A program made the translations under genes and the position numbers. Positions 30,804-64,000 of a DNA stretch of 64,000 nucleotides are shown one piece after another; positions within the stretch are counted from its first letter, which is position 1, and the number at the start of each line of letters is the position of its first letter. The notes under the pieces were generated by a model. That model was not told the DNA's origin and did no database searches. It saw only the letters and a program-made list of their open reading frames with translations. Source of the DNA: Streptomyces spiramyceticus (GTDB taxonomy: Bacteria > Actinomycetota > Actinomycetes > Streptomycetales > Streptomycetaceae); NCBI RefSeq assembly GCF_028807635.1, contig NZ_JARBAX010000001.1, positions 1,997,001-2,061,000 on the forward strand, in the 5' to 3' direction.

Positions 30804-30831
30804 CTGGTCTCTTCTCCTTTCTTCGCTGTTC

Positions 30832-33357: not shown

Positions 33358-33440
33358 TTCCCCCTTGTTGCCCGGCGCGAGCCCTGCCTACGTTTACGCC
33401 GGGCCACCGAACGTGGCGCAACCAGAAGGGGATTCAGGAA

Positions 33441-36218: not shown

Positions 36219-36228
36219 GACTGGCTCC

Positions 36229-37313: not shown

Positions 37314-37604
37314 GGCACTAAAGGAGTATGGAAAAAGGGGCGGTTGAGCCCCATGGGGCCGCTGGGCCGCCGTCCGCCTCGAATCGGCGCGACGGCGGCC
37401 CTTTTCGCGTGGCACGTGGCCTGGTCCGTAGCGCGTTACGCCGCCCGGCCGGTCGCGTGGTACGTCGCACCGCGCCCCAAGTGGACCACTGCCCCGGGCC
37501 CCCTCTGCGATTGAGTTTCCGCAGGCGGGCGCCGCTTCCGGCACCCCGCTTCCCGTGAAGGGCCGTTGGCAGCCCTGGTCCGTTTCCGACCTCCGGGAAG
37601 CCTC
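37314..37604. promoter_or_regulatory. Divergent 291-bp gap with a terminator-like hairpin
   Basis: No convincing gene. A stem made of 37365-37375 and 37392-37402 (GGGCCGCCGTC with its complement), extended by an inner CGCC/GGCG pair, is followed directly by TTTT on the plus strand. It lies in the leader of the phosphopantetheinyl transferase gene, so it could limit read-through or attenuate that gene. Promoters for both divergent genes should lie here but I cannot place them. Confidence 0.4.
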
Positions 37605-38294: not shown

Positions 38295-38418
38295 GCGTAT
38301 ACGAACAGCCACGCACGGTAGTTCAATATGTGGGACATCGGGCTCATCGCGTTGACACTGGTCACAGACCCGGCCATGATCCCCGAGGACGAGCTCGGGG
38401 GGAGTGGGGTGAGCTCCG

Positions 38419-40454: not shown

Positions 40455-41849
40455 TCAGCGCAGTTCGTCGTACGCCTCGCCGATCGCGGCGACGGCCTCC
40501 GAGATCCCGCTCAGCGGCAGTGATCCGTAACCCAGCAGCAGGGCGGGGCGGCCGGCCGGGCCGCCGAACCTGAACTGCTGGCCGCCGCGCACCAGTACCG
40601 ACCGGCGCAACGCCCCCTGTACCAGGGCCGCTTCGTCGGTGCCCTGCGGCAGCAGCGCATAGCTGTGCAGACCGGCCGCCGAACCGCTCATCCTGGCGTC
40701 CGGCAGATGCTCCCGTACGGCCGCGGCCATCGCCTCGCTGCGGGAGCGGTACCGGGAGCGGACCCGGCGCAGGTGGCGGTCGAGCAGGCCGCCGTGCATC
40801 AGGTCGGCGAACGCCAGCTGGGTGAGGGTGTCCGAGCCCTGGTCCTGGCGGGAACGGACCCGGTCCATCAGCGGGAACAGCTTGGGCGGGATCGCCAGCC
40901 AGCCGAGCCGCAGGCCTGGCACCAGCACCTTGCTGGTGGTCCCGGCGTAGATGACGCGCTCCGGGTCGCCGTCCTGCACCGCGGGCGGTCTGGCCTGGCG
41001 GTCGAACCAGAACTCGCCGTCGTAGTCGTCCTCGATGATCCAGCCGTCCACCTCCTCCGCCCAGCGCAGCAGCTCCTCCTTGCGCTTGGCCGACATGGTG
41101 ACGCCCGTCGGGAACTGATGGGCCGGGGTGACGAGGACGGCCCGTACACCGGTACGGGCCAGTTCCTCGACGACCAGGCCCTCCTCGTCGACCGGCACCG
41201 GGAGCGGGCGTATGCCGGTGTCCAGGATGAAGCGGCGCTGGCTGTTGTGGCCCGGCTCCTCGATGGCCAGCTCGTGGATGCCCAGATGCTGGAACGAGGA
41301 GCAGAGCAGAGCGAGGCCCTGGGCGAAGCCCGCCGTCACCATCACATGGGCCGGCTCGGTACGGACCGAACGCACCCGCCCCAGGTAGCCGGAGAGTTCA
41401 TTGCGCAGCTCGGGGATGCCTGCGACCGGCGGATAGTCCACGCCTTCGCGGCCCACGTTCTGCAGCACCTTCGTATAGGAGCTGAGCCACTCCTGCCGTG
41501 GGAAGTTGGACAGGTTGGCGATGCCGACGCGCAGATCCCAGCGGACCGCCGGGGCCGGCCGGGGGTCCAGGAGCGAGGGCGAACCGGCGCCCTCGGGCAG
41601 CTGGCGGGTGACATGGGTGCCCGATCCGCGTACCGCGTCGAGATACCCCTCGGCGATCAGCTGCTCGTACGCCTCGACCACCACGCTGCGGGAAAGCCCC
41701 AGGTCCTGGGCGAGCTGACGGCTCGAAGGCAGCCGGGTGCCGGGGTGCAGCACCCGGTCCTCGACCATGCCCTTGATGGCGTCCTGGAGCTGCGTCGTGA
41801 GCGACACCGCCGAGTCCCGGTCCACTTGGACCGCCAAGTGCCAAGCCAT
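40455..41849 (-). CDS. MocR/PdxR-type transcriptional regulator (GntR helix-turn-helix fused to aminotransferase fold)
   Basis: 464 residues. The N-terminal winged helix is of GntR type (TRLPSSRQLAQDLGLSR). The C-terminal part is a class I aminotransferase-like PLP domain with EDDYDGEF and the PLP lysine in GTTSKVLVPG. MocR proteins use PLP or an amino-compound aldimine as effector and often act on a divergent gene, here the nucleotide-sugar dehydrogenase operon. I chose ATG 41849 over GTG 41870 because GGAG lies eight bases upstream. That choice also leaves the direct repeat at 41851-41881 outside the coding sequence. Confidence 0.9.
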   Translation of the reverse strand: MAWHLAVQVDRDSAVSLTTQLQDAIKGMVEDRVLHPGTRLPSSRQLAQDLGLSRSVVVEAYEQLIAEGYLDAVRGSGTHVTRQLPEGAGSPSLLDPRPAPAVRWDLRVGIANLSNFPRQEWLSSYTKVLQNVGREGVDYPPVAGIPELRNELSGYLGRVRSVRTEPAHVMVTAGFAQGLALLCSSFQHLGIHELAIEEPGHNSQRRFILDTGIRPLPVPVDEEGLVVEELARTGVRAVLVTPAHQFPTGVTMSAKRKEELLRWAEEVDGWIIEDDYDGEFWFDRQARPPAVQDGDPERVIYAGTTSKVLVPGLRLGWLAIPPKLFPLMDRVRSRQDQGSDTLTQLAFADLMHGGLLDRHLRRVRSRYRSRSEAMAAAVREHLPDARMSGSAAGLHSYALLPQGTDEAALVQGALRRSVLVRGGQQFRFGGPAGRPALLLGYGSLPLSGISEAVAAIGEAYDELR

Positions 41850-41850
41850 C

Positions 41851-41881
41851 TGGTCTGCTCCATCCCCCACTTAGTGGTCTG
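41851..41881. promoter_or_regulatory. Candidate MocR operator: direct repeat TGGTCTG, 24-bp spacing
   Basis: TGGTCTG occurs at 41851-41857 and 41875-41881, with starts exactly 24 bp apart, in the short divergent region between the MocR gene and the dehydrogenase operon. A related CTGGCCTAC follows at 41900-41908. The same repeat with the same spacing occurs at 54779-54809. Binding is inferred. Confidence 0.6.
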
Positions 41882-41957
41882 GGTGCTCCCCCTTGCCGAC
41901 TGGCCTACTTGATCACGCCAACGGCCCTTATTTATAGCAACTTGAGGGGAGAACACG

Positions 41958-43289
41958 ATGACTGACGTACTCGTTCCCGCACTGGTCCGCCGGCCCGGTA
42001 CCGACACCTTCGACGGCCTGGTGGAGAGCCGAACGCTGCGGGTGGGGATCGTCGGACTCGGCTACACCGGGCTGCCGCTCGGCCTCGGTTTCGCCGCCGC
42101 CGGATTCCCGGTGCGCGGTCTGGACACGGACGCGGCCCGTGCGGCGCAGGTGATGCGCGGCGAGTCGTACCTGCCGGATGTGAGCGACGCCGAACTGGCC
42201 TCGGTCAACAGCCGGCTGAGCGCCACCACCGAGCCCGGCGAGCTGGCCGGTTCGGACGTACTGATGATCTGCGTGCCCACCCCGGTCACCGGCTCCCAGC
42301 AGGCGAACCTCGACTACGTCGACGCCGCGCTCGCCTCGGTGGCGCCGCTGCTGCGCCGCGGGATGCTGCTGGTCGTCCAGTCCACGGTGCCGCCGGGCGC
42401 GACGGCGGCCGCTGTCGCGGCGGCCGTGGCCGGCACCGGCCTGGAGCCGGGCATCGACTTCCATGTGGCGATGGCGCCGGAGCGCGTCGACCCGGCCAAC
42501 ACCGACGGCTGGAACCTCGCCAACACCCCGAAGGTGGTCGGCGGGCTCACCCCCGAGTGCACCCGGCGCGCGGCCCTGCTGTTCGGGCAGGTCTGCCGGA
42601 CGGTGGTGCCGGTGTCCAGCCTGGAGGTCGCCGAGCTGGCCAAGGTCTTCGAGAACACCTTCCGGCTGGTCAACATCGGCCTGACCCTCGAACTCTCCGA
42701 CCTCTGCCAGGAGCTGGGGATTCCGGTACGGGAGGTCATCGACGCCGCCGCCACCAAGCCGTACGGCTTCCTCGCCCACTACCCCGGCCCGGGCGTCGGC
42801 GGCGAGTGCATACCGGTCGACCCGCTCTTCCTGCGCGAGGCCGCGGCCCGCGCCGGTACGGACATGGAACTGGTCGCCGCCGCCCACCGGCGCATCGAGC
42901 AGCGGCCGCAGCAGGTCGTCGAGCGCCTCGGCGCTCTGCTCGACCGGCGCGGGCGGTCTCTGCGGGGCGCGAAGGTGCTGCTCGTCGGGGTGAGTTACAA
43001 GACCGGCGTCGCCGATCTGCGCAACGCCCCCGCCCTGGACATCGTGCGCGGACTGCGCGCGGCCGGCGCCCAGGTCTCGTACCACGACCCGCTGGTGCCC
43101 GAGCTGGAGATCGACGGCGCGGCGGTGCCCGCGGCCGGCTGGACGGCTGTCGAGCTGGCGCAGCAGGACGCTGCGGTCCTCGTCACGCCGGTGCGCGGGC
43201 TTGAGGACGATGTGCTGTGGGGTGTGCCGCCGGTGGTCCTGGACACCCACAACCGGCTCTCCGCCGCGAGCAATGTGGCGGTGCTCTGA
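41958..43289 (+). CDS. Nucleotide-sugar 6-dehydrogenase (UDP-GlcNAc/UDP-ManNAc dehydrogenase family)
   Basis: 443 residues. N-terminal NAD-binding GLGYTGLPLG (33-42), the central Lys/Asn helix (about 229-233) and the catalytic Cys284 in GGECIPVDP are all present, followed by the C-terminal UDP-binding domain. The family oxidises C6 of a UDP-hexose or UDP-HexNAc to the uronic acid in two NAD-dependent steps. RBS GAGGGGA precedes the ATG. It opens the long plus-strand operon; its stop overlaps the TrpD start by one base. No nucleotidyltransferase or glycosyltransferase is seen nearby, so the usual sugar-polymer role is doubtful. Confidence 0.92.
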   Translation: MTDVLVPALVRRPGTDTFDGLVESRTLRVGIVGLGYTGLPLGLGFAAAGFPVRGLDTDAARAAQVMRGESYLPDVSDAELASVNSRLSATTEPGELAGSDVLMICVPTPVTGSQQANLDYVDAALASVAPLLRRGMLLVVQSTVPPGATAAAVAAAVAGTGLEPGIDFHVAMAPERVDPANTDGWNLANTPKVVGGLTPECTRRAALLFGQVCRTVVPVSSLEVAELAKVFENTFRLVNIGLTLELSDLCQELGIPVREVIDAAATKPYGFLAHYPGPGVGGECIPVDPLFLREAAARAGTDMELVAAAHRRIEQRPQQVVERLGALLDRRGRSLRGAKVLLVGVSYKTGVADLRNAPALDIVRGLRAAGAQVSYHDPLVPELEIDGAAVPAAGWTAVELAQQDAAVLVTPVRGLEDDVLWGVPPVVLDTHNRLSAASNVAVL

Positions 43290-44332
43290 TGGGCACCGGG
43301 GTGCTGACCGCCGCGACGCGTGACGTCGTCGCGGGCCGGGAGCTGCCGGAGGAGGCAGCCACGCAAGCGGTCGCCGCGCTGCTCGACGCGTCGACGGACC
43401 CGGTCGACGCGGCGGCCTTCCTCACCGCGCTGGCGACCGGCGGCGTCTCCGCCCAGCTGGTGGCGGCAGCGGTACGGGCCGTGGTCGCGGCTGCCCGGCC
43501 GGTCGCCTGGAGCGGGCCCGCCGTCGACGTGGTCGGCACCGGCGGGGACGGCAGCAACTCGGTGAACATCTCGACGCTGGCCGGGCTGATCGCCGCCGCC
43601 GCCGGGGCCACGGTCGCCAAGACCGGCAACCGGGCCGCGACCTCGCGGTGCGGCAGCGCGGATCTGCTGGAGGCACTCGGCATCGACATCGACGCCGGCG
43701 AGCGCATCCCCGCGCTGCTGGCCGAGCACCGCTTCGCCTTCCTCTTCGCGCCGTCGATGCACCCGGCGCTGCGCCGCATCGCACCGCTGCGCCGCCGGCT
43801 GGGATTCCGCACCCTGTTCAACCTGTCGGGGCCGCTCGCCAGCCCCGTACCGCTGAACGGCCGGCTGATCGGCACCGCCGACCGGCGCGACCAGGAAGTC
43901 CTGGCCGAGGCGGCGTCCCTGCTCGGGTACCGGAAGACCTGGGTCGTCCTGGGCGCCGAAGGACTGGACGAGCTGACGACCCGGGGCGCGAGCAGCGTAC
44001 TCGCGGTCGACGACGGCCGGGTCGCCTCCTTCGACGTCGACCCCGCCCACCTGCTGGTCCGCCCCGCAGGACGCACCGACTTGGCAGGCGGCGACCCGCG
44101 CCGCAACGAGACACTCGCCCGCCAGGTCCTGGCAGGCGCGGCAGCGGGCCCCCTGCTCGACACGGTCCTGCTCAACGCGGCTGCGGCGCTCCATCTGGCC
44201 GGTCGGGCCGAGGACTTGGGCGCCGGCCTGACCCTGGCCCGCGAGGCCGTCTCGGACGGCAGGGCGCAGGCCCTGGCGACGCGCCTGGCAGCGGCAACGA
44301 CAGCGGGCCGCCTTCAGCCGGCGGCGCTGTAA
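43289..44332 (+). CDS. trpD: Anthranilate phosphoribosyltransferase
   Basis: 347 residues, standard size. The PRPP-binding GTGGDGSNSVNIST motif and the anthranilate-site KTGNRAATSRCGSADLLEALG region (K-GNR-S) are recognisable. It attaches phosphoribose from PRPP to anthranilate. The ATG at 43289 shares a base with the dehydrogenase stop (TGATG). Followed after 58 bp by the indole-3-glycerol phosphate synthase gene, which has its own ribosome site. Part of a complete tryptophan set in this locus. Confidence 0.93.
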   Translation: MGTGVLTAATRDVVAGRELPEEAATQAVAALLDASTDPVDAAAFLTALATGGVSAQLVAAAVRAVVAAARPVAWSGPAVDVVGTGGDGSNSVNISTLAGLIAAAAGATVAKTGNRAATSRCGSADLLEALGIDIDAGERIPALLAEHRFAFLFAPSMHPALRRIAPLRRRLGFRTLFNLSGPLASPVPLNGRLIGTADRRDQEVLAEAASLLGYRKTWVVLGAEGLDELTTRGASSVLAVDDGRVASFDVDPAHLLVRPAGRTDLAGGDPRRNETLARQVLAGAAAGPLLDTVLLNAAAALHLAGRAEDLGAGLTLAREAVSDGRAQALATRLAAATTAGRLQPAAL

Positions 44333-44390
44333 CCCGCACGCCCACACGCCCGTACGCCCCGAACCACCGCAACTGAAAGGAGTGACCACC

Positions 44391-45178
44391 ATGCACCTCG
44401 ACGAGATCATCACCGCCAAGCGCGCCGCCTGGAGCGCCCCCCGGGCCGCCGATGCCGCCGCGCGCGGCCGCCGCCACGCCGTCGAGCCCGGCAGCTTCGC
44501 CGCCGCGCTGAGCGGCCCGGACGTGTCGGTCATCGCCGAGATCAAGCCCAAGTCCCCGTCCAAGGGAGACCTGCTGGATCCGGTACTGGCTGTCCCGACC
44601 GCCCGGCAGTACGTCGCCGGGGGCGCCGCCGCCGTCTCCGTGCTCGCCGACACCCCCTACTTCGGCGGCTCGCCAGAGCTGGTCCGTACCGTCGCCGAAC
44701 ACCCCGACGTCACGGTCCCCGTCCTCTTCAAGGACTTCCTGGTCGACATCCGCCAGGTCCAGCTCGCCCACGACAGCGGCGCGGACGCCGTCCTCGTCAT
44801 CGTCAGGGCCGTCGACGACGCCCTGCTGCGCGACCTCGTACAGACCGCCCACGGCCTCGGCCTCGGCGCCCTCGTCGAGACCTTCACCCAGCACGAGGTG
44901 GACCGCGCGCTGAGCGCCGGTGCCCGGATCGTCGGGATCAACAACCGCGATCTGGCGACCTTCTCGGTCGACCTCGACAACTCCGCGCGGCTGCGCCGCG
45001 ACATCCCCCGCGGTGTCCTCACCGTCAGCGAGAGCGGCCTCTCGGGCCGCCCCGACATCGAACGCATCGCCGCCCACGGCTTCGACGCCGCACTGATCGG
45101 CGAATCCCTGCTCAGCAGCCCGACCCCCGCCCGCCAGGTGCGGTCCTACACCGGGGTTCCCATTCTGGAGGTGGCATC

Positions 45179-45182
<4 letters not shown>
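44391..45182 (+). CDS. trpC: Indole-3-glycerol-phosphate synthase
   Basis: 263 residues. [10 protein letters not shown], the VLFKDFLVD segment, the Glu of [10 protein letters not shown] and the INNRDLATF block are typical of TrpC and include its catalytic Lys and Glu residues. It closes carboxyphenylamino-deoxyribulose phosphate to indole-3-glycerol phosphate. AAAGGAG lies eight bases before ATG 44391, so this start is preferred to the in-frame GTG nine bases upstream. The stop overlaps TrpB (GTGA). Confidence 0.94.
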
Positions 45183-46361
<1,179 letters not shown>

Positions 46362-46375
<14 letters not shown>

Positions 46376-47159
46376 GCAGACCTTCGCGGACAACCGCATC
46401 AAGGGCGAGACCACCCTGGTCGCCTATCTGACCTCCGGCTACCCGAACCTCGGCGAGACGGTCGGCCTGATCTCCGCGGCCGCCGAGGCCGGCGCCGATG
46501 TGATCGAGCTGGGTGTGCCGTTCTCGGACCCGCTGGGCGACGGCCCGGTCATCCAGGCGACCGGACAGATCGCGCTGGACACCGGCACGACCGCCGCCGC
46601 CACACTCGACATCGTCGCCGAGGCCCGCGCCGCGGGTGTCGAGGTGCCGATCGTGCTGATGGGCTACTGCAACCCCTTCCTGCGCTACGGACTGGCGCAG
46701 CTGTACGACGACGCCAAGTCCGCCGGGGCCGACGGCTTCGTCGTCCCCGACCTGCCGGCCCGCGAGGGCGCGGAGTGGGTGAAGAACGCCGAGGCCGCCG
46801 AGCTGGGCCAGGTCTTCTTCGCGGCGCCCGGCAGCTCCACCGAGCGGATCGCCGAGTCCGCCGCCGCCTCCCGCGGCTTCCTGTACGTACTGGCCGCCAA
46901 CGGCGTCACGGGCGTACGGGCCGAACTCGATCCGGGCGTGCCCGCCTATCTGGACCGGGTCAGGTCGGTGTGCGAGGTCCCGATGGCCGTCGGTTTCGGC
47001 ATCTCCCGCCCCGAGCACGTCGCCGCGCTGCACGGCAGGGCCGACGGCGTGATCGTCGGCAGCGCGCTGCTGCAGCGGATCGGCGAGGCGAAGGATGCCG
47101 CGGGGCGGCTCCGGGCCACCACCGGGCTGATCGCGTCCCTGAAGGCGGCCACCCGATGA
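46362..47159 (+). CDS. trpA: Tryptophan synthase alpha chain
   Basis: 265 residues. Catalytic Glu49 ([10 protein letters not shown]) and Asp60 (GDGP) fall at the same numbers as in Escherichia coli TrpA, and the GVTGVR and GSALLQ phosphate-site loops are present. It releases indole from indole-3-glycerol phosphate for TrpB. ATG 46362 lies within the TrpB end, preceded by GTGAGGAG. Its stop overlaps the first DegT aminotransferase (ATGA), tying tryptophan synthesis to the sugar-type enzymes in one transcript. Confidence 0.96.
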
Positions 47160-48301
47160 ATGCCACGACCGCCCCCATCCCCTTCTTCAGCGGCGCACAG
47201 TCGGTACGCCGCGACTGGCCCCGGCTTGAGGCCCGGATCCGCGAGGTCGCCGCATCGGGACAGTTCACGTCGGGCCCGGTGACGGCGGAGCTGGAGGCCG
47301 CCGTCGCGGAGCGGACCGGCGCACGGCACGCGATCGCCGTCGCCAACGGCACGGACGCCCTGGTGATCCTGCTCAGGGCGGCGGGGATCGGCCCCGGCGA
47401 CGAGGTGATCGTTCCGGCGTACACCTTCTTCGCGACCGCGTCCGCGGTGCTGCACGTGGGTGCCGAGCCGGTACTGGTCGACGTACTGCCCGGGTCGTAC
47501 GCCATGGACCCGGAGCGCGCCGAGGCCGCCGTCACCGAGCGCACCAAGGCGATCATGCCGGTGCATCTCTTCTCGCAGATGGCCGACATGGAGACGCTGC
47601 GGGAGCTCTCCGACCGCCGCGGTCTGCTGCTCCTGGAGGACAGCGCCGAGGGCATCGACATGCGGGCCGGCGGCATCCACGCGGGGCTGTGGGGAAGCGG
47701 GGGCGTGCTCTCCTTCTTCCCGACCAAGACACTGGGCTCGCTCGGCGACGCCGGGATGCTGCTGACGAACGACGACGACATCGCGGGGCACGCACGCCGG
47801 CTGCGGTGCCACGGGCAGGACACTGACGGCGAGTACCTCTACCACGAGATCGGCTACAACAGCCGCTGCGACGAGCTCCAGTCGGCGTTCCTGCTGCACA
47901 GGCTGGAGCGGCTGAGCGAGGAGATCGAGCGGCGCTCGGAGCTGGCCGCCCGTTACGACCGGGCGCTCGCCCCGCTCGCACCGCAGGTGACGACGCCCTG
48001 GATGGCGCCCGCCAAGACCCCGAGCAACCAGGTCTATTACGTCTATCTCATCGAGTGCGACCGGCGCGACGAGCTGGTGGCCTTCCTGGACGCGCACGGG
48101 GTGGGCACCGAGGCGTACTACCCGCGCCCGCTCACCGAGCAGCCCGTACTCGCCCCCCTGGACGGCGCCCGCCACCCGGTCCCGGTGGCGGCCGCCGCGA
48201 GCCGGCGGGCCCTGGCCCTGCCGCTCTACCCGGACCTGGCCGACGAGCAGGCCGACCGGGTCTGCGCACTCCTTCACGCCTTCTACGGAGACCAGTCGTG
48301 A
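47156..48301 (+). CDS. DegT/DnrJ/EryC1/StrS-family aminotransferase (first copy)
   Basis: 381 residues. The NGTDAL segment, the EDSAEG motif with the PLP-ring Asp, and Lys191 in FFPTKTLGSLGDAG mark an active PLP enzyme of the sugar-aminotransferase family. Such enzymes aminate a keto-sugar, usually nucleotide-linked. Together with the 6-dehydrogenase at 41958 and the Gfo/Idh enzyme at 52766 it recalls the WbpA-WbpB-WbpE route to 3-amino-uronic acids. That is a family-level analogy only. Start coupled to TrpA. Confidence 0.93.
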   Translation: MNATTAPIPFFSGAQSVRRDWPRLEARIREVAASGQFTSGPVTAELEAAVAERTGARHAIAVANGTDALVILLRAAGIGPGDEVIVPAYTFFATASAVLHVGAEPVLVDVLPGSYAMDPERAEAAVTERTKAIMPVHLFSQMADMETLRELSDRRGLLLLEDSAEGIDMRAGGIHAGLWGSGGVLSFFPTKTLGSLGDAGMLLTNDDDIAGHARRLRCHGQDTDGEYLYHEIGYNSRCDELQSAFLLHRLERLSEEIERRSELAARYDRALAPLAPQVTTPWMAPAKTPSNQVYYVYLIECDRRDELVAFLDAHGVGTEAYYPRPLTEQPVLAPLDGARHPVPVAAAASRRALALPLYPDLADEQADRVCALLHAFYGDQS

Positions 48302-51615: not shown

Positions 51616-51656
51616 CGGACTGACCGACACCATCGAACGAGAGAGAAGGACCGACC

Positions 51657-54777: not shown

Positions 54778-54778
54778 G

Positions 54779-54809
54779 TGGTCCGGCCGTCACACCGGTT
54801 GGTGGTCTG
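54779..54809. promoter_or_regulatory. Second candidate MocR operator: TGGTCCG and TGGTCTG, 24-bp spacing
   Basis: TGGTCCG at 54779-54785 and TGGTCTG at 54803-54809 start exactly 24 bp apart, repeating the arrangement at 41851-41881. They sit at the head of the 125-bp gap (54778-54902) before trpE, so trpE-trpG-reductase probably has its own promoter under the same regulator. Confidence 0.6.
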
Positions 54810-54902
54810 GGCCGGGTACGGGCGTCGTTGATTGGCTTGCGGTACGCCGCCGGTCGAGGTGCGGCGACATACCGATCCGTACCGGAAGAAGGACCACCGA
54901 CG

Positions 54903-56378
54903 ATGACCGTGACTGCCCCGGCTCCGGCCCCGGCGCCGGCCGCCACGCTGATGCGGGTGCGCGTGGCACGTGACGAACTGCCGCCGCACGAACCGCTCGC
55001 GCTCTATGCGGATCTGCGCGAACGCCTAGGCTCCGACCAGGTGTTCCTCTTCGAGAGCCTCGCCGGACCGGACCAGGACTGCCGCGCCGCGGTGGTCGGC
55101 GCGGACGTGCTGGCACGGATCACCGTGCGGGACGGGCGGGTCTCCTTCGACGGGCTGCCGGAGCTGGTGCGGCACCTGGAGACGGTGGCGGCCCAGCACC
55201 CGGACGTGTGGGATCTACTGCGGGCCGTCGACGCCTCCTTCGCGGTGGAGAGCGAGGTGGGCCCCGGGACGTACGCCTTCGGTTTCCTGGCCACTTTCGG
55301 CTATGAGGCCGCCTGGTACATGGAGGAGCTGCCGCCGCGCAGACCCGGCGCGGCGCCCGAGATCACACTGACGGCCTTCCGGCACACCGTCTGGTACGAC
55401 GTGCTGGGCGGCGGCGCCCGCCATCTGCGGGCGGAGGCGGCGGAGTTCGGTGGCAGCGGCCCGCTCGGCAGCGGACTGGACGTCCTGGTACGGGGGCTGC
55501 CCGCCCGCCGGTACGCCGCCGTGCCGACCGCGCCGCGCCCTCGCGCCGTGCGCCGCACCGTCGGCCGGAAGACCTTCGCCCAGCGGGTGAAGCGATGCCT
55601 CGCGCACATCAGGGCCGGTGACGTCTACCAGATCCAGATCGGCCACCGCATCGAGGTGCGCACCCCGCTGGGGGTCCTCGACGCCTACCGCCGGCTGCGG
55701 CACCGCAATCCGTCGCCGTACATGTACCTCGCGCCGTGGGCGGGCCGTACCCTGATCGGCGCCAGCCCCGAGCTGCTGTTCCGCATCGAGGACGGCAGGC
55801 TCACCATGCGGCCCATCGCGGGCACGGCGGCCCGGTCCTCGGACGGGGGAGAGGAAGACGCCCGGCGCGTCGAGGCACTGCGCGCCAGCGAGAAGGAGCG
55901 CGCCGAGCACGTCATGCTCGTCGACCTGTGCCGCAACGACGTGGCGAGGGTGACACGGCCCGGCACACTCTCGGTCGATTCGATGATGAGCGTCGAGGCC
56001 TTCTCCCATGTGCACCACCTGGTCTCCACGGTCGGCGGACAGCTGGCACAGGGCGAGGACGTCTGGTCCGCACTGCGTGCCGTCTTCCCCGCCGGGACCA
56101 TGACCGGTGCGCCGAAACTGCGGGCGATGGAGCTGATCGACGAGATCGAGCGGCAACCACGCGGCGCCTACGCCGGGGCCATCGGACTGATCGATGTGCG
56201 GGGCTTCGCGGTGCTCGCGCTGTGCATCCGTACCGCCGTGCACGAGGGCGACACCTACGCGCTCCAGGCCTCCGCCGGGATCGTCGCCGACTCGTCGGCG
56301 GACGGCGAGTGGCGCGAGACGCTGATCAAGATGAGTGCGGTGTACGGCGCCGTGACCGGTGAGGAGCTCACCGCATGA
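54903..56378 (+). CDS. trpE: Anthranilate synthase component I
   Basis: 491 residues. The chorismate-binding domain carries IAGTAARSS, EKERAEHVMLVDLCRND, SHVHHLVSTVGG and TMTGAPKLRAMELI. PIAGT (304-308) has Ala where PabB-type aminodeoxychorismate synthases have Lys (PIKGT), so anthranilate is the expected product. It starts the local tryptophan or anthranilate route from chorismate. ATG 54903 follows a long leader with the putative MocR repeats. The N-terminus (alanine/proline-rich) lacks an obvious LLES-type tryptophan feedback motif, which would fit a biosynthetic copy free of feedback; this is tentative. The stop overlaps trpG. Confidence 0.94.
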   Translation: MTVTAPAPAPAPAATLMRVRVARDELPPHEPLALYADLRERLGSDQVFLFESLAGPDQDCRAAVVGADVLARITVRDGRVSFDGLPELVRHLETVAAQHPDVWDLLRAVDASFAVESEVGPGTYAFGFLATFGYEAAWYMEELPPRRPGAAPEITLTAFRHTVWYDVLGGGARHLRAEAAEFGGSGPLGSGLDVLVRGLPARRYAAVPTAPRPRAVRRTVGRKTFAQRVKRCLAHIRAGDVYQIQIGHRIEVRTPLGVLDAYRRLRHRNPSPYMYLAPWAGRTLIGASPELLFRIEDGRLTMRPIAGTAARSSDGGEEDARRVEALRASEKERAEHVMLVDLCRNDVARVTRPGTLSVDSMMSVEAFSHVHHLVSTVGGQLAQGEDVWSALRAVFPAGTMTGAPKLRAMELIDEIERQPRGAYAGAIGLIDVRGFAVLALCIRTAVHEGDTYALQASAGIVADSSADGEWRETLIKMSAVYGAVTGEELTA

Positions 56379-56986
56379 AGGTCCTGCTCATCGACGCGTA
56401 CGACAGCTTCGTCCACATCATCGACCACTATTTGCGGCAGCAGGGCGCCGAGACCGAGGTCGTCAGGTCACGCACCCGCACCCCGGCCGAGCTGGCCGCG
56501 GCCCGCCCCGATGCGCTGGTGCTCGGCCCGGGGCCCGGTCACCCGGCCGACTCGGGCCACGTCGAGCTCGTACGCCGCTTCGCCGGCCGGGTGCCCATCC
56601 TGGGCGTCTGCCTGGGTCATCAGGCCATCGGCCTGGCGTACGGCGGGCGCATCGAGACGGCGGCCCGGACCGTGCACGGCAAGACCAGCCGGATCGATCA
56701 CGACTCCACGGGCGTCTTCGCCGGGCTGCCGGACGGGGCGGAAGTCACCCGGTACCACTCGCTGGCCGTCTCCGAGCCGCTCCCCGACGGGCTCACCGTG
56801 ACTGCGCGGGCGCGCGAGGACGGCTGTGTGATGGGTCTGCGCCACCGCGAACTGCCCGTCGAGGGCGTGCAGTTCCACCCCGAAAGCATCACGACGCAGC
56901 ACGGGCTGCGCTTCATCGACAACTTCCTTGGAGGTACGAAGAGATGGACAGAAACGGCGACAGCCCCGGCCACTGGGCGACGATAG
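56375..56986 (+). CDS. trpG: Anthranilate synthase component II (glutamine amidotransferase)
   Basis: 203 residues. The class I amidotransferase triad is Cys79 (GVCLGHQAIG), His168 and Glu170 (QFHPES). It supplies ammonia to TrpE. ATGA overlap with trpE, and its last 43 bases overlap the following reductase gene, so the C-terminal tail (about 15 residues) is probably not critical. PabA is the closest alternative, but pairing with a PIAGT-type TrpE favours anthranilate synthase. Confidence 0.94.
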   Translation: MKVLLIDAYDSFVHIIDHYLRQQGAETEVVRSRTRTPAELAAARPDALVLGPGPGHPADSGHVELVRRFAGRVPILGVCLGHQAIGLAYGGRIETAARTVHGKTSRIDHDSTGVFAGLPDGAEVTRYHSLAVSEPLPDGLTVTARAREDGCVMGLRHRELPVEGVQFHPESITTQHGLRFIDNFLGGTKRWTETATAPATGRR

Positions 56987-57627
56987 CGGCGCTGAACGGA
57001 TCGGAGCGCCCGGACGGACTGACCGCCCGCGTGCTGCGGATGCTCGGCGAGGCGGCGGCCGAGCACGGGGTGCATCTGGACGTGATCCCGCTCCGGGAGT
57101 ACGAGATCACCCCCTGCGGGCCCTGCGGGGACTGCAACATCCGTCCGGTCCCGTGCGGGATGCCGGACGACACGGCCTCCCTGGTGGACCGGCTGATCCG
57201 GGCGGACGGGGTGCTGTACGCGGCGCCCGTGCACGGCTTCGGGCTCTCCAGCGTGATGCAGACCTTCATCGAGCGGGCCGGGGTGGGCCACCTGCGCTTC
57301 GAGCGGCCGCTCGCCAACAAGGTGGCGGGGGTGGTGGTCACGGGCCGCCGCTACAGCCACGACCGGGTGTACGGGCAGCTGGTCGACAATGTGCTGCTCA
57401 ACCGGATGATCCTGGCGGGCAGCGGCTTCCCCGCCTTTGTGCACGACCAGTTCGCGCCGGAGGAGGACCGGGAGGGGCTGGCGGCGGCGCGCGGCCTGAT
57501 CGACCGGATGATCGACATGCTCCGGGTCCTGCTGCTCCCCCACGGCGGACGCGAGGACACAGCCCGTCTGCTGGCCTCGCTCCCCCGTAACGAACGCGCC
57601 GCCCTCCTCACCCCGGCGGCGGCCTGA
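56944..57627 (+). CDS. NADPH-dependent FMN reductase/flavodoxin-fold protein with cysteine cluster
   Basis: 227 residues. The N-terminal ALNGSERPDGLT phosphate loop and the AAPVHGFGLSS segment fit the flavodoxin-like FMN reductase family. Cys58, Cys61, Cys64 and Cys71 (CGPCGDC and a later C) form a cluster often seen in the iron-sulfur flavoprotein branch. It may supply reduced flavin or carry out a reduction. ATG 56944 lies inside trpG, preceded by GGAGG. It is the last gene of the trpE unit; only 28 bp separate it from the convergent amidohydrolase. Confidence 0.86.
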   Translation: MDRNGDSPGHWATIAALNGSERPDGLTARVLRMLGEAAAEHGVHLDVIPLREYEITPCGPCGDCNIRPVPCGMPDDTASLVDRLIRADGVLYAAPVHGFGLSSVMQTFIERAGVGHLRFERPLANKVAGVVVTGRRYSHDRVYGQLVDNVLLNRMILAGSGFPAFVHDQFAPEEDREGLAAARGLIDRMIDMLRVLLLPHGGREDTARLLASLPRNERAALLTPAAA

Positions 57628-57655
57628 GCCGTCCCCGGGCCCCGGGCCCCGCGCG

Positions 57656-58951: not shown

Positions 58952-59646
58952 TGGTGCGCTCCTGTCGGTCGTGCGTGGGCGGCGGGGCCGAAGATCATCC
59001 AGACCATGGGGACCCCAGGTCTGGACACGTGGAACCTCAACCGGTACGTCGCGCGCCCCGGTTCATTGGTGATGGCAGCGTCCGCGCGCCCCGCAGCCGC
59101 GAGCTGCGCCGCGTGCATCGTCGACTCGGCGGGGACCCAGTCGATGTCGTAGCCGTCCCTGCCGCCCGCAGTCCCGTCGAGCAGCTCGGCAAGGCGCTGC
59201 GTCTCGTGCAGTGTGGCGAGCCGCAGCCGCCCCTCGGGCAGCCGGGGCGCGCGCGAGGCGATCCCGTACTCCGGTGTGGGTGTGGAGAAGGATGCCTCCA
59301 GACGCAGCTCGGGCGACCAGAAGAAGCGGGTGGCGCACTCGGCTGCGCCCGGTACGAGCGCGTACGACGGGCCACCGCGCCGGCCGACCGCTGCGAGGAG
59401 CTCCTCGAAGGAGTCGCAGGGCACCGGCCGTACGTCCGGTCCGCCCAGATGTGCCAGCCGGTGCCCGAGCCGCTCCAGGGCGACCATCGATGTGGTGCCG
59501 CCGGGGCCGAGCGTGCCGATGCGCATCGTGCCGGGCCGCAGCAGTGGCGATCCCGGTATGCGGTCGGGCTCCCAGAGCAGCGGAAACGGCGTCGGGTCGA
59601 CCTCGGCCGTACCGGCCGCCGGTGTGTGCAGCAGGCTCTCGGTCAT
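58948..59646 (-). CDS. Prephenate-dehydratase-fold protein
   Basis: 232 residues. LGPGGTTS (about 46-53), CATRFF (Thr106-Arg107-Phe108) and a late AESTMHAAQLAAAGRADAAI block match prephenate dehydratases (GPxGT, TRF, ST-AA). The classical ESR-containing regulatory ACT domain is absent. In secondary metabolism this fold also includes prephenate decarboxylases (BacA, SalX, AerD families), which start non-aromatic tyrosine-like amino acids. Which of these it is cannot be decided by eye. Coupled by ATGA to the PaaK-type ligase upstream. Confidence 0.75.
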   Translation of the reverse strand: MTESLLHTPAAGTAEVDPTPFPLLWEPDRIPGSPLLRPGTMRIGTLGPGGTTSMVALERLGHRLAHLGGPDVRPVPCDSFEELLAAVGRRGGPSYALVPGAAECATRFFWSPELRLEASFSTPTPEYGIASRAPRLPEGRLRLATLHETQRLAELLDGTAGGRDGYDIDWVPAESTMHAAQLAAAGRADAAITNEPGRATYRLRFHVSRPGVPMVWMIFGPAAHARPTGAHQ

Positions 59647-61055
59647 GACTGGTGCCCCCGGGCTCCGGCGAGACGGCGGGCCGCCTCGGTCTCGTGGTCG
59701 GCGGCGGTGCGCCGGTCGTGGATGCGGGCGGCCTTCCAGCTGACGAAGGCGCCGGTGGTGGTCACCGGGTCGAGCTCGTCGAGGAACTCGACGTCGCAGC
59801 GCACGCCGAGGGCCGCCGCGACCCGCCCCGCATGGGCCTGCCGGAGCTCCCGGCCGGGCTCGCCCGGCAGGTCGAGCCGTACGGTCACCCGGTCCTCGCC
59901 GGCCTCGTCGCAGTCGATGACGACCTGGTATCCGAGGCTTCCGTCGATGCCCCGCAGTACGGCCTGCTCGATCTCCCAGGCCTGGAACGAGCGTCCGCCG
60001 AGCCGCAGCCGGTCGCGGGTCCGCCCGACGACCTTGAGCACCGGGCCCTGGATGCCGCAGCCGCAGTCGTTGCGGCGCAGATCCACCAGATCGCCGGTGC
60101 GGTAGCGGATGAGCGGCTTGATCCCGTCGATCAGCATGGTGATGACGAGTTCACCGGTGCCGTACCGACCGAGCTCCTCGCCCGTGTCCGGATCGACCAC
60201 CTGGGCCGCATAGTTGGGCCGCGCCAGATGCAGTTGCCCACGGGCGCAGGCGGATGCGATGACCAGCGACTCCTGTGCTCCGTACAGCGCGTTGTAGGTA
60301 CGTACTCCCCAGGCCTGGTCGATCTGCCTCGCCAGGTCGGGGGTACACATCTCGCCGGTGACGAGGAAGACCTTGACGGCGAAGTCCCGGCGCGGGTCGA
60401 GGCCCTGGGCGCGGGCGGCCTTGGCGAGGGAGAGCGCCACGTTGGGCGTGCAGAACACCACGTCCAGGGCGAGGTCGCGCATCAGCTGGAGCGCCTTCGG
60501 GAAGCCGATGACCGGGGAGTACGGCCAGATCTTGGCGACGGCGGAGCCCAGGTTGCGGGCCACGTCGCCCAGTGTGTCGCCGAGCGAGTGCACCTCGGTG
60601 GGCCCCATGATGCCGACGCGCGGGGACCGCTCGGGGAAGTGCTCGGCGAAGATGTTCCGCCAGCCCTCCGTGACATGGGCGTTGGAGGCGATCACCTCGC
60701 GCTGGTCGCGCGGGCAGGGTGTGGCGGGCCCGGTCGTTCCCGTCGTCTCGTAGAAGAAGCACGCCTCGTCGAGATCACGGCTGAGGATGGCGTGCATGGC
60801 CTCCCGGAGGTCGTTCTTCGTGGTGAAGGGGAGGTCCGGGAGGGCGGCGAGGGTGAGCGATGCGGGGTCGACCCCTTCGAGGCGGCGGGCGTAGAAGGGC
60901 GAGCCGGACTGCGCGAGCGCGACGACGCGCCGCAGCTGCCCCTCAGCCCACAACTCCCATTCGCCCTCGGTGAGTTCACCGGCGACATAACGGGCATGGA
61001 GTGGCAGGTACCGGTCCAGGAACTCTCGGTACTTCTCGGATGTGGGCAGCCACAT
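59643..61055 (-). CDS. PaaK-type acyl-adenylate/CoA ligase
   Basis: 470 residues. ANL-superfamily motifs: ETTGTTGP (103-110) as phosphate loop, YGAQES, RYRTGD and a C-terminal hinge with LKVVGRTRDRL. Phenylacetate-CoA ligase relatives activate aryl or acyl acids as adenylates. Anthranilate or another aromatic acid is a natural candidate here but unproven. ATG 61055 follows GGAGG. A 95-bp gap separates it from trpF upstream. No carrier protein is encoded next to it, so CoA or an amine is the likely acceptor. Confidence 0.88.
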   Translation of the reverse strand: MWLPTSEKYREFLDRYLPLHARYVAGELTEGEWELWAEGQLRRVVALAQSGSPFYARRLEGVDPASLTLAALPDLPFTTKNDLREAMHAILSRDLDEACFFYETTGTTGPATPCPRDQREVIASNAHVTEGWRNIFAEHFPERSPRVGIMGPTEVHSLGDTLGDVARNLGSAVAKIWPYSPVIGFPKALQLMRDLALDVVFCTPNVALSLAKAARAQGLDPRRDFAVKVFLVTGEMCTPDLARQIDQAWGVRTYNALYGAQESLVIASACARGQLHLARPNYAAQVVDPDTGEELGRYGTGELVITMLIDGIKPLIRYRTGDLVDLRRNDCGCGIQGPVLKVVGRTRDRLRLGGRSFQAWEIEQAVLRGIDGSLGYQVVIDCDEAGEDRVTVRLDLPGEPGRELRQAHAGRVAAALGVRCDVEFLDELDPVTTTGAFVSWKAARIHDRRTAADHETEAARRLAGARGHQS

Positions 61056-61150
61056 GGATCCTCCACGACGTATCGGGTGCGAGTGCGCAGTGCGCCCGTA
61101 CGTGTCCGGGCACCGGGCAGTCCGATGCTGCTATCCGCCCGGTGGCCGCC

Positions 61151-61774
61151 TCAATCCGCCTTTGGAGGCAGGGGGCCTGTTCCCTTCGCGGCAGCGATGA
61201 ACCTTTCGATCAACCCGATGTCCTTCACGCCCCGGCTGATCTCCACCCCGCTGGACACATCCACGCCCCAGGGCCGCAGGCCGGTGACGGCGTCGGCGAC
61301 ATTGTCCGGGGCGAGCCCGCCGGCGAGCATCCAGGAGCCGGTGGGGCGGGTGCCGAGCGCGGCCGGGTCCCACCGCTCGCCGGAGCCGGGCCGGGGCGAG
61401 TCGACGATGAGCAGGTCCTCGCCGTACGCACCGGTCTCCAGCGGAGCGCCGGTCGCGGGCGAGGTGGCGCGGATCAGCCGCAGCCCCTCGGCGCGGAGGG
61501 CCGCGAAGGCCTCCGGCTCCTCCTCGCCGTGCAGCTGGACGGTGTCGACGCCGGCCAGGGCCGTCGCGCGGCGCACCTCGTCCAGCGGCTCACCGCGGAA
61601 GACGGCGACGGTCGCGGCGGTTCCGGACGGGACCAGGGCAGCGAGTTCGCGGACCGCCTGCGGGGTCAGCTGCCGGGGGCTGGGGGTCAGTACGAAACCG
61701 ATGGCGTCGGCTCCGGCGGCGACCGCCGCCTCCACCTCGGCGGCCTTCCGTAGACCGCAGACCTTGACGTACAC
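61151..61774 (-). CDS. trpF: Phosphoribosylanthranilate isomerase
   Basis: 207 residues from the GTG at 61774, chosen because GAGGAG lies just upstream and the product then starts directly at VYVKVCGLRK. The longer frame runs into a repetitive spacer. The catalytic Cys in KVCG, Pro-Arg in SPRQLT, QLHG and the Asp in VDVSSGVE are present. It converts phosphoribosylanthranilate to the TrpC substrate. It is separated from trpEG and trpDCBA on the opposite strand but completes the pathway. Confidence 0.93.
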   Translation of the reverse strand: MYVKVCGLRKAAEVEAAVAAGADAIGFVLTPSPRQLTPQAVRELAALVPSGTAATVAVFRGEPLDEVRRATALAGVDTVQLHGEEEPEAFAALRAEGLRLIRATSPATGAPLETGAYGEDLLIVDSPRPGSGERWDPAALGTRPTGSWMLAGGLAPDNVADAVTGLRPWGVDVSSGVEISRGVKDIGLIERFIAAAKGTGPLPPKAD

Positions 61775-61780
61775 ACGTAC

Positions 61781-61855
61781 TCCTCGGGAACTCGGGGACT
61801 CGAAAACTCGGGGACTCGGGGGACTCGGGGACTCGGGGACTCGGGGGACTTGGTG
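61781..61855. repeat. Low-complexity direct repeats of the CTCGGGGGA type before trpF
   Basis: About seven imperfect 8-10-bp units (GGGACTCG) fill the spacer between the MFS gene stop and the trpF start. No gene fits here. Confidence 0.8.
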
Positions 61856-61856
61856 A

Positions 61857-63107
61857 TCAGGACTGCTTGGCGGTGCGCGACAGTACGAAGGCAACCGCGC
61901 CCACGCCCAGTCCGACGCCCGTCACCAGCAGCGCCGTGCGCGGCCCGAAGACCGTCGCCAGGAGACCGCCGAGCAGCCCGCCCGCCGGGATCACCGCCCA
62001 GGTGACGAACCGGAAGGTCGCGCTGACCCGGCCGATGAGATGGCCGGGGACGGTCGCCTGGCGCAGCGTAATGGAGTGGATGTTGAAGACGGCGATACCG
62101 AAGCCGTTCAGCACATAGCCGGCGACGAGTACGGCGATCCCGGTGGCGCCCGGCCCCGGCGCGAGCGGCAGCAGCAGGGTCGCCGCCGAGGCCACCGCCA
62201 TCCCGGACACCATCGCCCGCCCGACTCCGAGCCTCGCCCCGAGGCGGCCGGCGGCAAGTGAACCGCCCAGAGCGCCGATGCTGCCCGCCGCGACGACCCC
62301 GCCGAGGCCTGCCGGGCCCAGGCCCAGGACCCGGATCCCGTACAGCGGGAAGACGACGAGCACCACGTCCCACAGCAGGTTGTACCAGGAGGCATGGAAC
62401 ATGATCACGCGCAGCAGTCTGCTGCGCAGTGTCACCCGCAGCCCCTCCGCCACGTCTTTGCGGACCGAGGTGCGCCCCGCCCTGACCGGACGTACCTCCG
62501 GAGTACGGATCCGCAGCAGCGCCGCGGCCGCGACCAGATACCCGAGACAGTCGACCAGGATCGCGACGGGCGCGGTGAGCCACTGGATCAACGCCCCGCC
62601 GAGCCCCTGCCCGGCGGTCTCGGCCACCGAACGGCTGGCCTGGAGCTTGCTGTTGCCCTCGACCAGCTGTTCCTTGGGGACGAGGGCGGGCAGGTACGCC
62701 TGGTACGCGACGTCGAACTGCGCGGTGAGCACGCCCGTGAGGAAGGCGATGACGCACAGCGCGCCGATGCTGAGCCCCTGGGTCCAGGCGAGCAGCGGTA
62801 CGAGTGTCAGTACGGCGGCCCGGCCCAGATTGGCGCCGATGAGCAGCGGCCTGCGGCGGGCCCGGTCCGCGATCACCCCGGCCAGCAGGGTGACGCAGAG
62901 CACCGGCAGATACTGCGCGGCGTTGAGGAGTCCGAGCTGCGCCGGGGAGGCGTCGAGCAGCACGATCGCGGTGAGCGGCAGGGCGAGTTCGGTGACCCGG
63001 GAGCCGAGCAGGGAGACGGTCTGGCCGCCCCACAGCCTGCGGAAGTCCCGGTTGCGCCACAGGCCGGGGACTTCCTCGGCCTTGGTCAGCAGGTCAGACG
63101 AGGACAT
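61857..63107 (-). CDS. MFS exporter (MFS_3/enterobactin exporter-like, about 12 helices)
   Basis: 416 residues. It starts with FRRLWGGQTVSLLGSRVTELALPL, a hallmark of actinobacterial MFS exporters, and contains the intracellular loop motif ADRARRRPLL. About 12 hydrophobic helices are visible. ATG 63107 has GGGAGGA a few bases upstream and overlaps the ATP-grasp stop by 14 bp, so the longer upstream frame is rejected. Likely exports the product of block 4 and may contribute to self-resistance. Confidence 0.92.
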   Translation of the reverse strand: MSSSDLLTKAEEVPGLWRNRDFRRLWGGQTVSLLGSRVTELALPLTAIVLLDASPAQLGLLNAAQYLPVLCVTLLAGVIADRARRRPLLIGANLGRAAVLTLVPLLAWTQGLSIGALCVIAFLTGVLTAQFDVAYQAYLPALVPKEQLVEGNSKLQASRSVAETAGQGLGGALIQWLTAPVAILVDCLGYLVAAAALLRIRTPEVRPVRAGRTSVRKDVAEGLRVTLRSRLLRVIMFHASWYNLLWDVVLVVFPLYGIRVLGLGPAGLGGVVAAGSIGALGGSLAAGRLGARLGVGRAMVSGMAVASAATLLLPLAPGPGATGIAVLVAGYVLNGFGIAVFNIHSITLRQATVPGHLIGRVSATFRFVTWAVIPAGGLLGGLLATVFGPRTALLVTGVGLGVGAVAFVLSRTAKQS

Positions 63108-64000
63108 CGTGGTCCTCCCTGAGCGGACTCCACTCGATGCGGTACGCGGCGAGGGTCTGCCGGATCGCGGTCTCGACCAGCTCCGCACCGGTCGCGCTGA
63201 AGCGGAAGGTTCCCGCAGTGTGGACGGCACCGCCGTGGCCCTGGAGGACCGTGCCGCGCGGCGGCAGCGTCTCGGCGTACATCGCCGGAATCCGTGCCAC
63301 CAGCGACTCCACGCTGTCGACGACACAGGGCCGTACCGGCGGCTCGGGCATCATCAGATAGCCGGCGACAGGGCCGTTCAGGTCCATCGGCTCGATCTTC
63401 GGTACGTCGCCGAGCTGGACCTGTGCGGATGCGGCGACCAGGTCGACTCCGTACACCTCTTCCCAGACGAAACGGACCTGGCCGCCGCCCGCACGGGCGC
63501 CGATCTCCAGGAAGACAATGTCGTCGTCGGCGGGGTCCGCCGTGCGGAACACCTCCAGGTGGAAGACGTCGTCGGTGATCCCGAGTGCCTCGCAGACCCG
63601 TTCGGCGAAGACCGTGACGCGGCGCTCGAAGTCCGGGTCGTCATTGGCGACGGAGCTGAAGGCGGTGCCGGTGGCGAAGTCCAGGCAGTTGCCGCCGCAC
63701 CGCCAGCTGCGTACGACGAGCAGCTTTCCGCGGGCCATCACCCCGTCGACCTGGTACAGCGTCCCGTCGATGAACTCCTCGCACTGCGCCTCGCTCAGGT
63801 CGGCCCCGTTCAGCAGCGCCTCCAGCTGCCCGGCGCCGCGCACCACATGCACGCCCTGGCTGTCGGCGCCGGCCCGCGGCTTCAGTACGAACGGGAAGCC
63901 CGACCCGGCGGCGAAGGCCCGGACGTCCGTTGCGGTGGGAGTGGCCCGGAAGCCGGGCACCCGCAGACCGGCATCGGCGACCTTGCCCTTCATCACCACC
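63094..64000 (-). CDS. ATP-grasp ligase, N-terminus outside window
   Basis: At least 301 residues are visible and the frame runs off the end of the window. FVLKPRAGADSQGV (ATP-binding Lys), EEFIDGTLYQVDGV, FLEIGARAGGG (metal-binding Glu) and the surrounding ATP-grasp layout are clear. Carboxylate-amine ligases of this kind join an amino acid or acid to an amine through an acyl phosphate, as in dipeptide antibiotics. It heads the visible part of the minus-strand operon with the exporter, trpF, PaaK-type ligase, dehydratase-fold and amidohydrolase genes. An apparent ATG at 63999 is probably internal. Confidence 0.88.
   Translation of the reverse strand, partial: VVMKGKVADAGLRVPGFRATPTATDVRAFAAGSGFPFVLKPRAGADSQGVHVVRGAGQLEALLNGADLSEAQCEEFIDGTLYQVDGVMARGKLLVVRSWRCGGNCLDFATGTAFSSVANDDPDFERRVTVFAERVCEALGITDDVFHLEVFRTADPADDDIVFLEIGARAGGGQVRFVWEEVYGVDLVAASAQVQLGDVPKIEPMDLNGPVAGYLMMPEPPVRPCVVDSVESLVARIPAMYAETLPPRGTVLQGHGGAVHTAGTFRFSATGAELVETAIRQTLAAYRIEWSPLREDHDVLV

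Follow-up and report, generated by a model that had tools for sequence, protein, structure and literature searches.

The window analysed here is a 64,000-nucleotide stretch of the Streptomyces spiramyceticus genome (C1:1997001-2061000; 7.08 Mb in two contigs), and our subject is the block of genes at its right-hand end (40455-64000), in which extra copies of the tryptophan-synthesis genes are interleaved with enzymes of amino-sugar type. We read the block as one version of a conserved operon whose product is a non-proteinogenic amino acid resembling tryptophan, joined in many lineages to further units; we put the probability of this reading a little below one half (about 0.46), and infer both the product and the sugar chemistry. 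Part of the evidence is a strict co-occurrence. A scan of genome contigs for DUF6917, a domain encoded within the block, found 234 relatives, of which the best 80 loci were kept, a non-random sample to which the counts below refer (genes within about 10 kb, unless wider flanks are stated). TrpB and TrpA are present at 22 of these 80, and a standalone B3/4 protein is present at the same 22, with the other 58 carrying neither TrpB nor B3/4 (22/22 against 0/58 at the thresholds used). So exact a coupling suggests that tRNA becomes charged with the product, which is what one would expect if that product is an amino acid resembling tryptophan.

Gene content of the block and its recurrence

Gene identities between 40455 and 64000 were assigned from Pfam and NCBIfam profiles, the cut-offs of which were noted gene by gene, and from relatives in the PDB. 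A MocR gene lies divergent from a plus-strand string running from a sugar dehydrogenase to an FMN reductase, after which the genes turn to the minus strand; at ten of the 14 junctions within the string the genes overlap by 1 to 14 bases, bearing out the coupled starts given in a preliminary description of this DNA, every named gene of which was confirmed by Pfam or NCBIfam. That description also placed the tryptophan genes within 19 kb, and the distance from the TrpD start (43289) to TrpF is indeed ~18.5 kb. The cluster continues beyond the right edge of the window, with a second ATP-grasp ligase and a second Gfo/Idh gene (GfoA). Part of it forms what we term the ‘core’: a nucleotide-sugar dehydrogenase (NSDH), two DegT aminotransferases (AT1 and AT2), two Gfo/Idh proteins (GfoA and GfoB), an IolE-like TIM barrel, an M20 hydrolase, an Ldh2 protein and DUF6917.

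40455..41870, minus: MocR/PdxR-type regulator (GntR plus aminotransferase fold), divergent from the operon; NCBIfam PdxR over cut-off
41958..43289, plus: nucleoside-diphosphate (NDP)-sugar 6-dehydrogenase, NSDH (core); TIGR03026 over cut-off
43289..44332, plus: TrpD, extra copy, start ATG 43289; TIGR01245 over cut-off
44382..45182, plus: TrpC, extra copy; PF00218
45179..46375, plus: TrpB, extra copy; TIGR00263 over cut-off
46362..47159, plus: TrpA, extra copy; TIGR00262 over cut-off, ELG..PFSDP..DGP motif present
47156..48301, plus: DegT/StrS aminotransferase AT1, WbpE-like (core); PF01041, best solved relative WbpE, E 4e-75
48298..49434, plus: DegT/StrS aminotransferase AT2 (core); PF01041
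49431..50315, plus: TIM-barrel protein (AP_endonuc_2), nearest to IolE-type dehydratases (core); PF01261
50308..51615, plus: M20 hydrolase (core); PF01546, best PDB relative LysW-lysine hydrolase, E 8e-7
51657..52769, plus: Ldh2-type oxidoreductase (core); PF02615, E 8e-107
52766..54097, plus: Gfo/Idh protein GfoB fused to DUF6917, the latter from 53696 (core); PF01408 and PF21891
54094..54777, plus: standalone B3/4 protein, candidate trans-editing tRNA deacylase; PF03483 over cut-off, 227 amino acids
54903..56378, plus: TrpE (Streptomyces-type clusters only); PF00425, PDB relative anthranilate synthase
56375..56986, plus: TrpG (Streptomyces-type clusters only); TIGR00566 over cut-off
56944..57627, plus: NADPH-dependent FMN reductase (Streptomyces-type); PF03358
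57656..58951, minus: amidohydrolase (Streptomyces-type); PF01979
58948..59646, minus: protein weakly matching prephenate dehydratase (Streptomyces-type); PF00800 at E 5e-4, under gathering threshold
59643..61055, minus: PaaK/BagE-FevW-like adenylating enzyme (Streptomyces-type); PF00501, NF041217 under cut-off
61151..61774, minus: TrpF, likely GTG start at 61774; PF00697 over cut-off
61857..63107, minus: major facilitator superfamily (MFS) exporter, start ATG 63107; PF07690, homologues in G110 and G111
63094..64000, minus: ATP-grasp ligase, cut by the window edge; PF13535
C1:2061362-2063676 (L037 362-1585 and 1582-2676), right of the window: second ATP-grasp ligase and GfoA (core)

TrpD, TrpB and TrpA score above their NCBI cut-offs of equivalog type, as TrpG does above one of subfamily type; for TrpC and TrpE the best-matching models are those of their own families, yet the scores fall under the NCBIfam cut-offs. 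The Glu and Asp of the TrpA motif we take to have their usual roles. For NSDH, models of UDP-HexNAc (uridine diphosphate N-acetylhexosamine) dehydrogenases score above those of UDP-glucose dehydrogenases, all below their own cut-offs, and the TIM barrel finds iolE as its top NCBIfam model (under cut-off) and IolE as its top PDB match (E 1e-5). The nearest named relative that we saw, Streptomyces sp. ISL-98, carries block proteins 96-100% identical to those described here.

The core recurs both with and without tryptophan genes, its members being present at the following numbers of the best 80 loci: TIM barrel 78, GfoB 78, M20 76, AT1 75, AT2 75, Ldh2 75, GfoA 63 and NSDH 46. Within the genus, a close Gfo/Idh gene with DUF6917 adjacent to it was found in 7 of the 60 other same-genus genomes among 100 searched; all seven loci lie beside the TIM barrel, M20 and Ldh2 genes, with aminotransferases in six and the dehydrogenase in five, and no tryptophan genes were present in the 20 kb read at each. 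When these seven were clustered with the best 80 (87 loci, with overlaps such as L032/L104 and L033/L116), an EF-hand protein proved to accompany the core at 41 of the loci lacking tryptophan genes, UbiA at 31 and a DXS-like protein at 7. That the core also stands without tryptophan genes, often beside UbiA, suggests a free building block as its product. Such cores (L028-L034, L073-L133) occur in many actinobacteria beside UbiA, the EF-hand protein and an FAD oxidoreductase, and at one locus (L029, 11107-13455) DUF6917, by eye, continues in frame into a DXS-like protein. DUF6917 itself (window 53696-54097) is predicted to be all-beta, with a predicted local distance difference test score of 95, with numerous His, Arg, Glu and Asn positions invariant across 44 sequences; among the 874 proteins found, the 120 that were listed include none with a name that indicates a function. 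It is encoded separately from GfoB in G106-G109, in Algicola and at the seven same-genus loci.

The 22 loci with tryptophan genes (‘trp-type’) span Streptomyces, Micromonospora, Bacillus/Paenibacillus, Halalkalibacter and Algicola, and carry, besides the extra TrpB and TrpA, mostly also TrpC, TrpF and TrpD. In four Firmicutes (G106-G109; Bacillus and Paenibacillus, about 60 kb read in each) the order is MocR, trpD, trpC, trpB, trpA, trpF, GfoA, AT1, AT2, TIM barrel, M20, Ldh2, GfoB, DUF6917 and B3/4, followed by NSDH or an MFS gene and then an EamA gene. Streptomyces NBC_00083 (G110) and a Micromonospora (G111) have a similar set, with EamA on one side and, at the front, GfoA, two ATP-grasp genes, MFS, TrpF, MocR and NSDH. 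Algicola sagamiensis (L072, Gammaproteobacteria) has TrpC, the core, B3/4, TrpB, TrpA, TrpF and EamA, with glyQ/glyS next by eye. Closer to hand, seven Streptomyces loci besides ISL-98 (L055-L061) share the genes of the block from TrpD through to ATP-grasp, with identities of about 62-93%; the amidohydrolase, the gene resembling prephenate dehydratase and the FMN reductase are confined to these and ISL-98, 8 of the best 80. The synteny check proposed in the preliminary description thus finds the joint set of tryptophan genes, core and B3/4 in further Streptomyces and, at lower identity, in other phyla; its recurrence is far beyond chance.

GfoA is present in 15 of the 17 trp-type sets examined, the other two (L065 and L066) having been read over 20 kb, and a MocR gene stands beside 11 of 17 clusters in the stretches read (G106-G111 included), in keeping with the MocR regulation proposed at the outset. 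In S. noursei and S. abyssomicinicus a MocR homologue 83-89% identical occupies the same place. EamA relatives (of the L103 or the Micromonospora protein) occur in 12 of 17 sets, the Streptomyces type, L071 and L074 being the ones without; the L103 protein resembles YddG, an exporter of aromatic amino acids, with an E-value of 2e-11 that stays below the cut-off. TrpE lies within the cluster in both Streptomyces-type genomes checked, and found no match within 100 kb on the operon contig, some contigs being shorter, in any of the 13 genomes of other types (G100-G111, G113). At a looser threshold L070, which lacks TrpB, gives a partial B3/4 and also a match to TrpF; having only these and a partial DUF6917, L070/G112 was excluded from the TrpE and TrpD position counts. 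The smallest operons read possess an EamA exporter-type gene, no anthranilate synthase and no recognised ligase.

The tryptophan enzymes and the B3/4 protein

Had the tryptophan genes of the block been the only copies in the genome, they might simply have served growth, a test posed in the preliminary description. This test does not refute a separate pathway, because the genome holds further copies: a second TrpB (57% identical) lies at C1:1222028 with TrpA, TrpC and TrpE around it, and TrpD occurs at two other places, C1:1339708 and within a TrpE/G/D/C set at C1:1974-1978 kb. Block TrpD is 36% identical to the genome's own housekeeping copy; TrpF, as PF00697, is the sole copy in the genome. 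More broadly, a second, housekeeping-type TrpB is kept in all 14 trp-type genomes checked. In a tree of 32 TrpB proteins, the 14 cluster copies from Actinobacteria and Firmicutes form one clade (support 100/97), apart from 17 copies labelled housekeeping by their position outside the operon. The cluster copies of TrpC and of TrpA likewise each form one group (SH-aLRT 98 and 87), in quick trees with long-branch warnings, and those of TrpD may form two groups, as they do in the best tree (approximately unbiased test, p 0.10; 24 rows kept, with Algicola and short or fragment rows dropped).

The TrpB catalytic Glu motif is kept in 16/16 cluster rows and the Lys motif in 15/16, the sixteenth being a fragment. 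Elsewhere there are residues that set the cluster enzymes apart: Phe or Tyr before the catalytic Lys of TrpC (13/13 cluster copies, against Arg in 13/14 others), Gly in TrpA (16/16, against Thr in 13/15 others) and the loss of the His of the TrpD KHGNR motif, which is present in 15/15 housekeeping rows and 0/10 cluster rows (Ala, Cys or Thr instead). A changed substrate for the cluster enzymes is plausible from these comparisons, with weak evidence from the substrate pocket.

The B3/4 protein is a free-standing domain. Whereas some B3/4 match is found in 194 of 295 same-genus genomes, a protein more than 70% identical to it is found in three, this one included, the other listed matches being at most 42% identical. 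Its best relative in the PDB is the canavanyl-tRNA deacylase CtdA (E 3e-10), followed by another B3/4 protein and by the beta chains of phenylalanyl-tRNA synthetase. According to PMC10018355, CtdA strips canavanine from tRNA(Arg) and has canavanine genes for neighbours; like our protein, it (PDB 9f7e) is thus a standalone B3/4 domain of ~230 amino acids next to genes for one non-protein amino acid, although CtdA sits with genes of canavanine degradation and the B3/4 protein with those of tryptophan synthesis. Together, the coupling to TrpB and the likeness to a tRNA deacylase point to a tryptophan-like amino acid.

Proposed pathway and competing explanations

The pathway that we envisage would begin with the dehydrogenase oxidising UDP-N-acetylglucosamine (UDP-GlcNAc) at C6; a Gfo/Idh protein and the WbpE-like AT1 would then bring about C3 oxidation and transamination to a 3-amino-UDP-GlcNAcA (the corresponding uronic acid), which M20 could deacetylate. 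Ldh2, AT2, the IolE-like TIM barrel and DUF6917 might convert this into an amino acid of six carbons resembling anthranilate, perhaps with a heteroaromatic ring (as in an aminopyridine or aminopyrrole carboxylate), for TrpD-F-C-A-B to turn into an indole-like ring bearing alanine. Host synthetases would be expected to charge such a product onto tRNA, hence the need for the B3/4 protein, predicted to deacylate the product-tRNA in trans; an exporter would release the product and MocR would control the operon. Where present, the ATP-grasp ligases may convert the product into a small peptide, much as bacilysin-type ligases join anticapsin into one, and in the Streptomyces-type cluster TrpE/G, PaaK, two ATP-grasp ligases and a small polyketide set would elaborate it. 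The most specific form of the proposal has three phyla of bacteria producing a tryptophan analogue with a heteroaromatic ring (such as aza- or pyrrolo-pyrrole tryptophan) that derives from UDP-GlcNAc rather than chorismate, with TrpD-F-C-A-B recruited and a dedicated tRNA deacylase for protection; in this form it is possible but decidedly tentative.

Several observations weigh against the reading of a tryptophan-like product. No UDP-removing enzyme was recognised; NSDH was not found in G107 or G108, each read over 60 kb, so that the sugar route is not complete everywhere; and TrpD has no match near the operon in four of 15 genomes (G100, G101, G102 and G113), so that not every operon comes with its own enzyme for the TrpD step. 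The DUF6917 model finds no convincing fold match among solved structures. In the tryptophan enzymes, positions that separate cluster from housekeeping copies are not enriched near the catalytic motifs (P 0.20-0.50), and the His matching that of KHGNR was, according to PMC10520873, dispensable in the Sulfolobus enzyme. Algicola TrpB lies outside the cluster clade, alone on a long branch, and Algicola TrpA has the housekeeping-type residue; taken with the different order of its trp genes, independent recruitment is possible in that operon. TrpE/G of the Streptomyces-type clusters would supply ordinary anthranilate, the likeness to YddG comes from one exporter, and the argument as a whole is made from genes, with a predicted product and a putative deacylase.

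Some of these points would suit another arrangement, in which the extra TrpD-F-C-A-B make ordinary tryptophan from host anthranilate, later modified by or fused to a sugar-derived amino unit, with B3/4 on guard. TrpB keeps its catalytic motifs, Streptomyces-type clusters bring their own TrpE/G, the replaced TrpD His is the residue reported as dispensable (PMC10520873), and a B3/4 protein would fit as well. We nevertheless think this rather unlikely: the smallest operons are without a recognised enzyme to join the two parts, and, in the operons outside the Streptomyces type, extra Trp enzymes should not increase the supply of tryptophan when the committed step, that of TrpE/G, is missing. That the locus is merely two unrelated neighbours, a spare tryptophan operon beside an amino-sugar cluster, seems highly improbable; the core does lack TrpB at 58 of the best 80 loci, but here the genes are interleaved and overlap, the same joint set recurs in three phyla, and TrpB forms a separate clade.

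A further alternative takes up the conjugate favoured in the preliminary description: an indole, anthranilate or tryptophan unit would be joined by ATP-dependent ligation to an amino-sugar acid or amino acid and exported. For this speak the two ATP-grasp ligases of this cluster, G110, G111, S. noursei, S. abyssomicinicus and five Paenibacillus loci, the resemblance of the ATP-grasp proteins to DdaF and BacD models (below cut-offs), and the PaaK gene of eight Streptomyces loci. ATP-grasp genes occur at 13 of the 22 trp-type loci within about 10 kb and at 15 with wider flanks (adding L062 and L064; L065 and L066 were read too short for this count), which favours a conjugate as the end product in many lineages. 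They were not found, however, in about 60 kb each of G104, G106 and G109 (two Bacillus and Paenibacillus aquistagni), nor in the 19-20 kb of Halalkalibacter (L085) and Algicola (L072). With the ligase not found in the smallest versions, conjugation is common, and the shared product must exist without it; nor would ligation alone explain why B3/4 follows TrpB at 22 loci and is missing with it from 58. We consider this reading rather unlikely. What survives of the earlier interpretation is an undescribed pathway that joins a tryptophan set to an amino-sugar module; ligation as its common denominator does not, and PaaK, at 8 of 22 trp-type loci and all of them Streptomyces, cannot be counted a shared feature. 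By eye, the P. aquistagni operon is followed, ~6 kb downstream, by a D-Ala-D-Ala-ligase-like gene.

Relation to known systems and the flanking genes

The WbpA/WbpB/WbpE pathway leads to UDP-GlcNAc3NAcA (the 2,3-diacetamido uronic acid), and shares with the block an NDP-sugar 6-dehydrogenase, a Gfo/Idh protein and a WbpE-like aminotransferase; no WbpD-type acetyltransferase was seen among the block genes scanned, which instead include AT2, M20, Ldh2, the TIM barrel and DUF6917. Bacilysin and dapdiamide clusters combine a non-protein amino acid with an ATP-grasp ligase and an exporter, as do, with a suspected amino acid, the actinobacterial and some Paenibacillus versions of our operon; here, unlike there, the precursor genes are of amino-sugar type plus Trp enzymes, and the smallest versions have no ligases. 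Extra tryptophan genes within a specialised-metabolite cluster are also familiar from CDA-type (calcium-dependent antibiotic) lipopeptide clusters, which carry trpE2/G2/D2/C2 supply genes and of which the E/G/D/C set at C1:1974-1978 kb is reminiscent; the block, by comparison, has D, C, B, A and F, with E/G in the Streptomyces type only, interleaved with sugar genes. From a housekeeping trp operon it differs in that other trp copies exist in the genome and its TrpB, TrpC and TrpA group apart.

No description of the operon was found in the literature searched, though a report in a subscription journal is possible. As far as we have found, then, the parts resemble CtdA, the Wbp enzymes and bacilysin-type ligases and their combination is new: kin to the clusters for amino-acid antimetabolites, and new in category if the ring comes from UDP-GlcNAc, in which case biology would have a second way to make an indole-like amino acid. 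Were the proposal true, it would predict an antimetabolite of tryptophan that is widespread in nature and comes with its own self-protection, as well as new chemistry leading from amino sugars to aromatic-type amino acids, a role for DUF6917, and Trp enzymes possibly useful for making non-canonical tryptophans. The signature of TrpB, B3/4 and DUF6917 makes the reading directly testable in a Bacillus-type operon of ~17 genes.

To the left of the block lie further genes:

29865..36113: accessory module with FabD-like acyltransferase, FabG-like ketoreductase, HAD protein, AfsA-like protein, ketosynthase and chain-length-factor (CLF)-like ketosynthase; Pfam/NCBIfam
36297-38696, minus: UbiA protein
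38419-40204, plus: sensor kinase and LuxR-type response regulator

The left module (29865-38696) has homologues close to the cluster in both S. noursei and S. abyssomicinicus, where in the second species their arrangement is partly changed, and both species have homologues of the genes at 36297..40204. The earlier statement that the block contains no polyketide synthase is accurate for 40455-64000, but ketosynthase, CLF-like, AfsA-like, ketoreductase, FabD-like and UbiA genes are present to its left, at 29865-38696. Further left, window positions 3-22748 and the adjoining C1:1977001-1997000 (L036) hold very long minus-strand frames, of 1221 and 6284 amino acids in the window and 4617 in L036. 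The TrpE/G/D/C set at C1:1974-1978 kb stands upstream of these, together with what appears by eye to be a 3-deoxy-D-arabino-heptulosonate 7-phosphate synthase-like protein; it looks like a CDA-type tryptophan supply, separate from the block.

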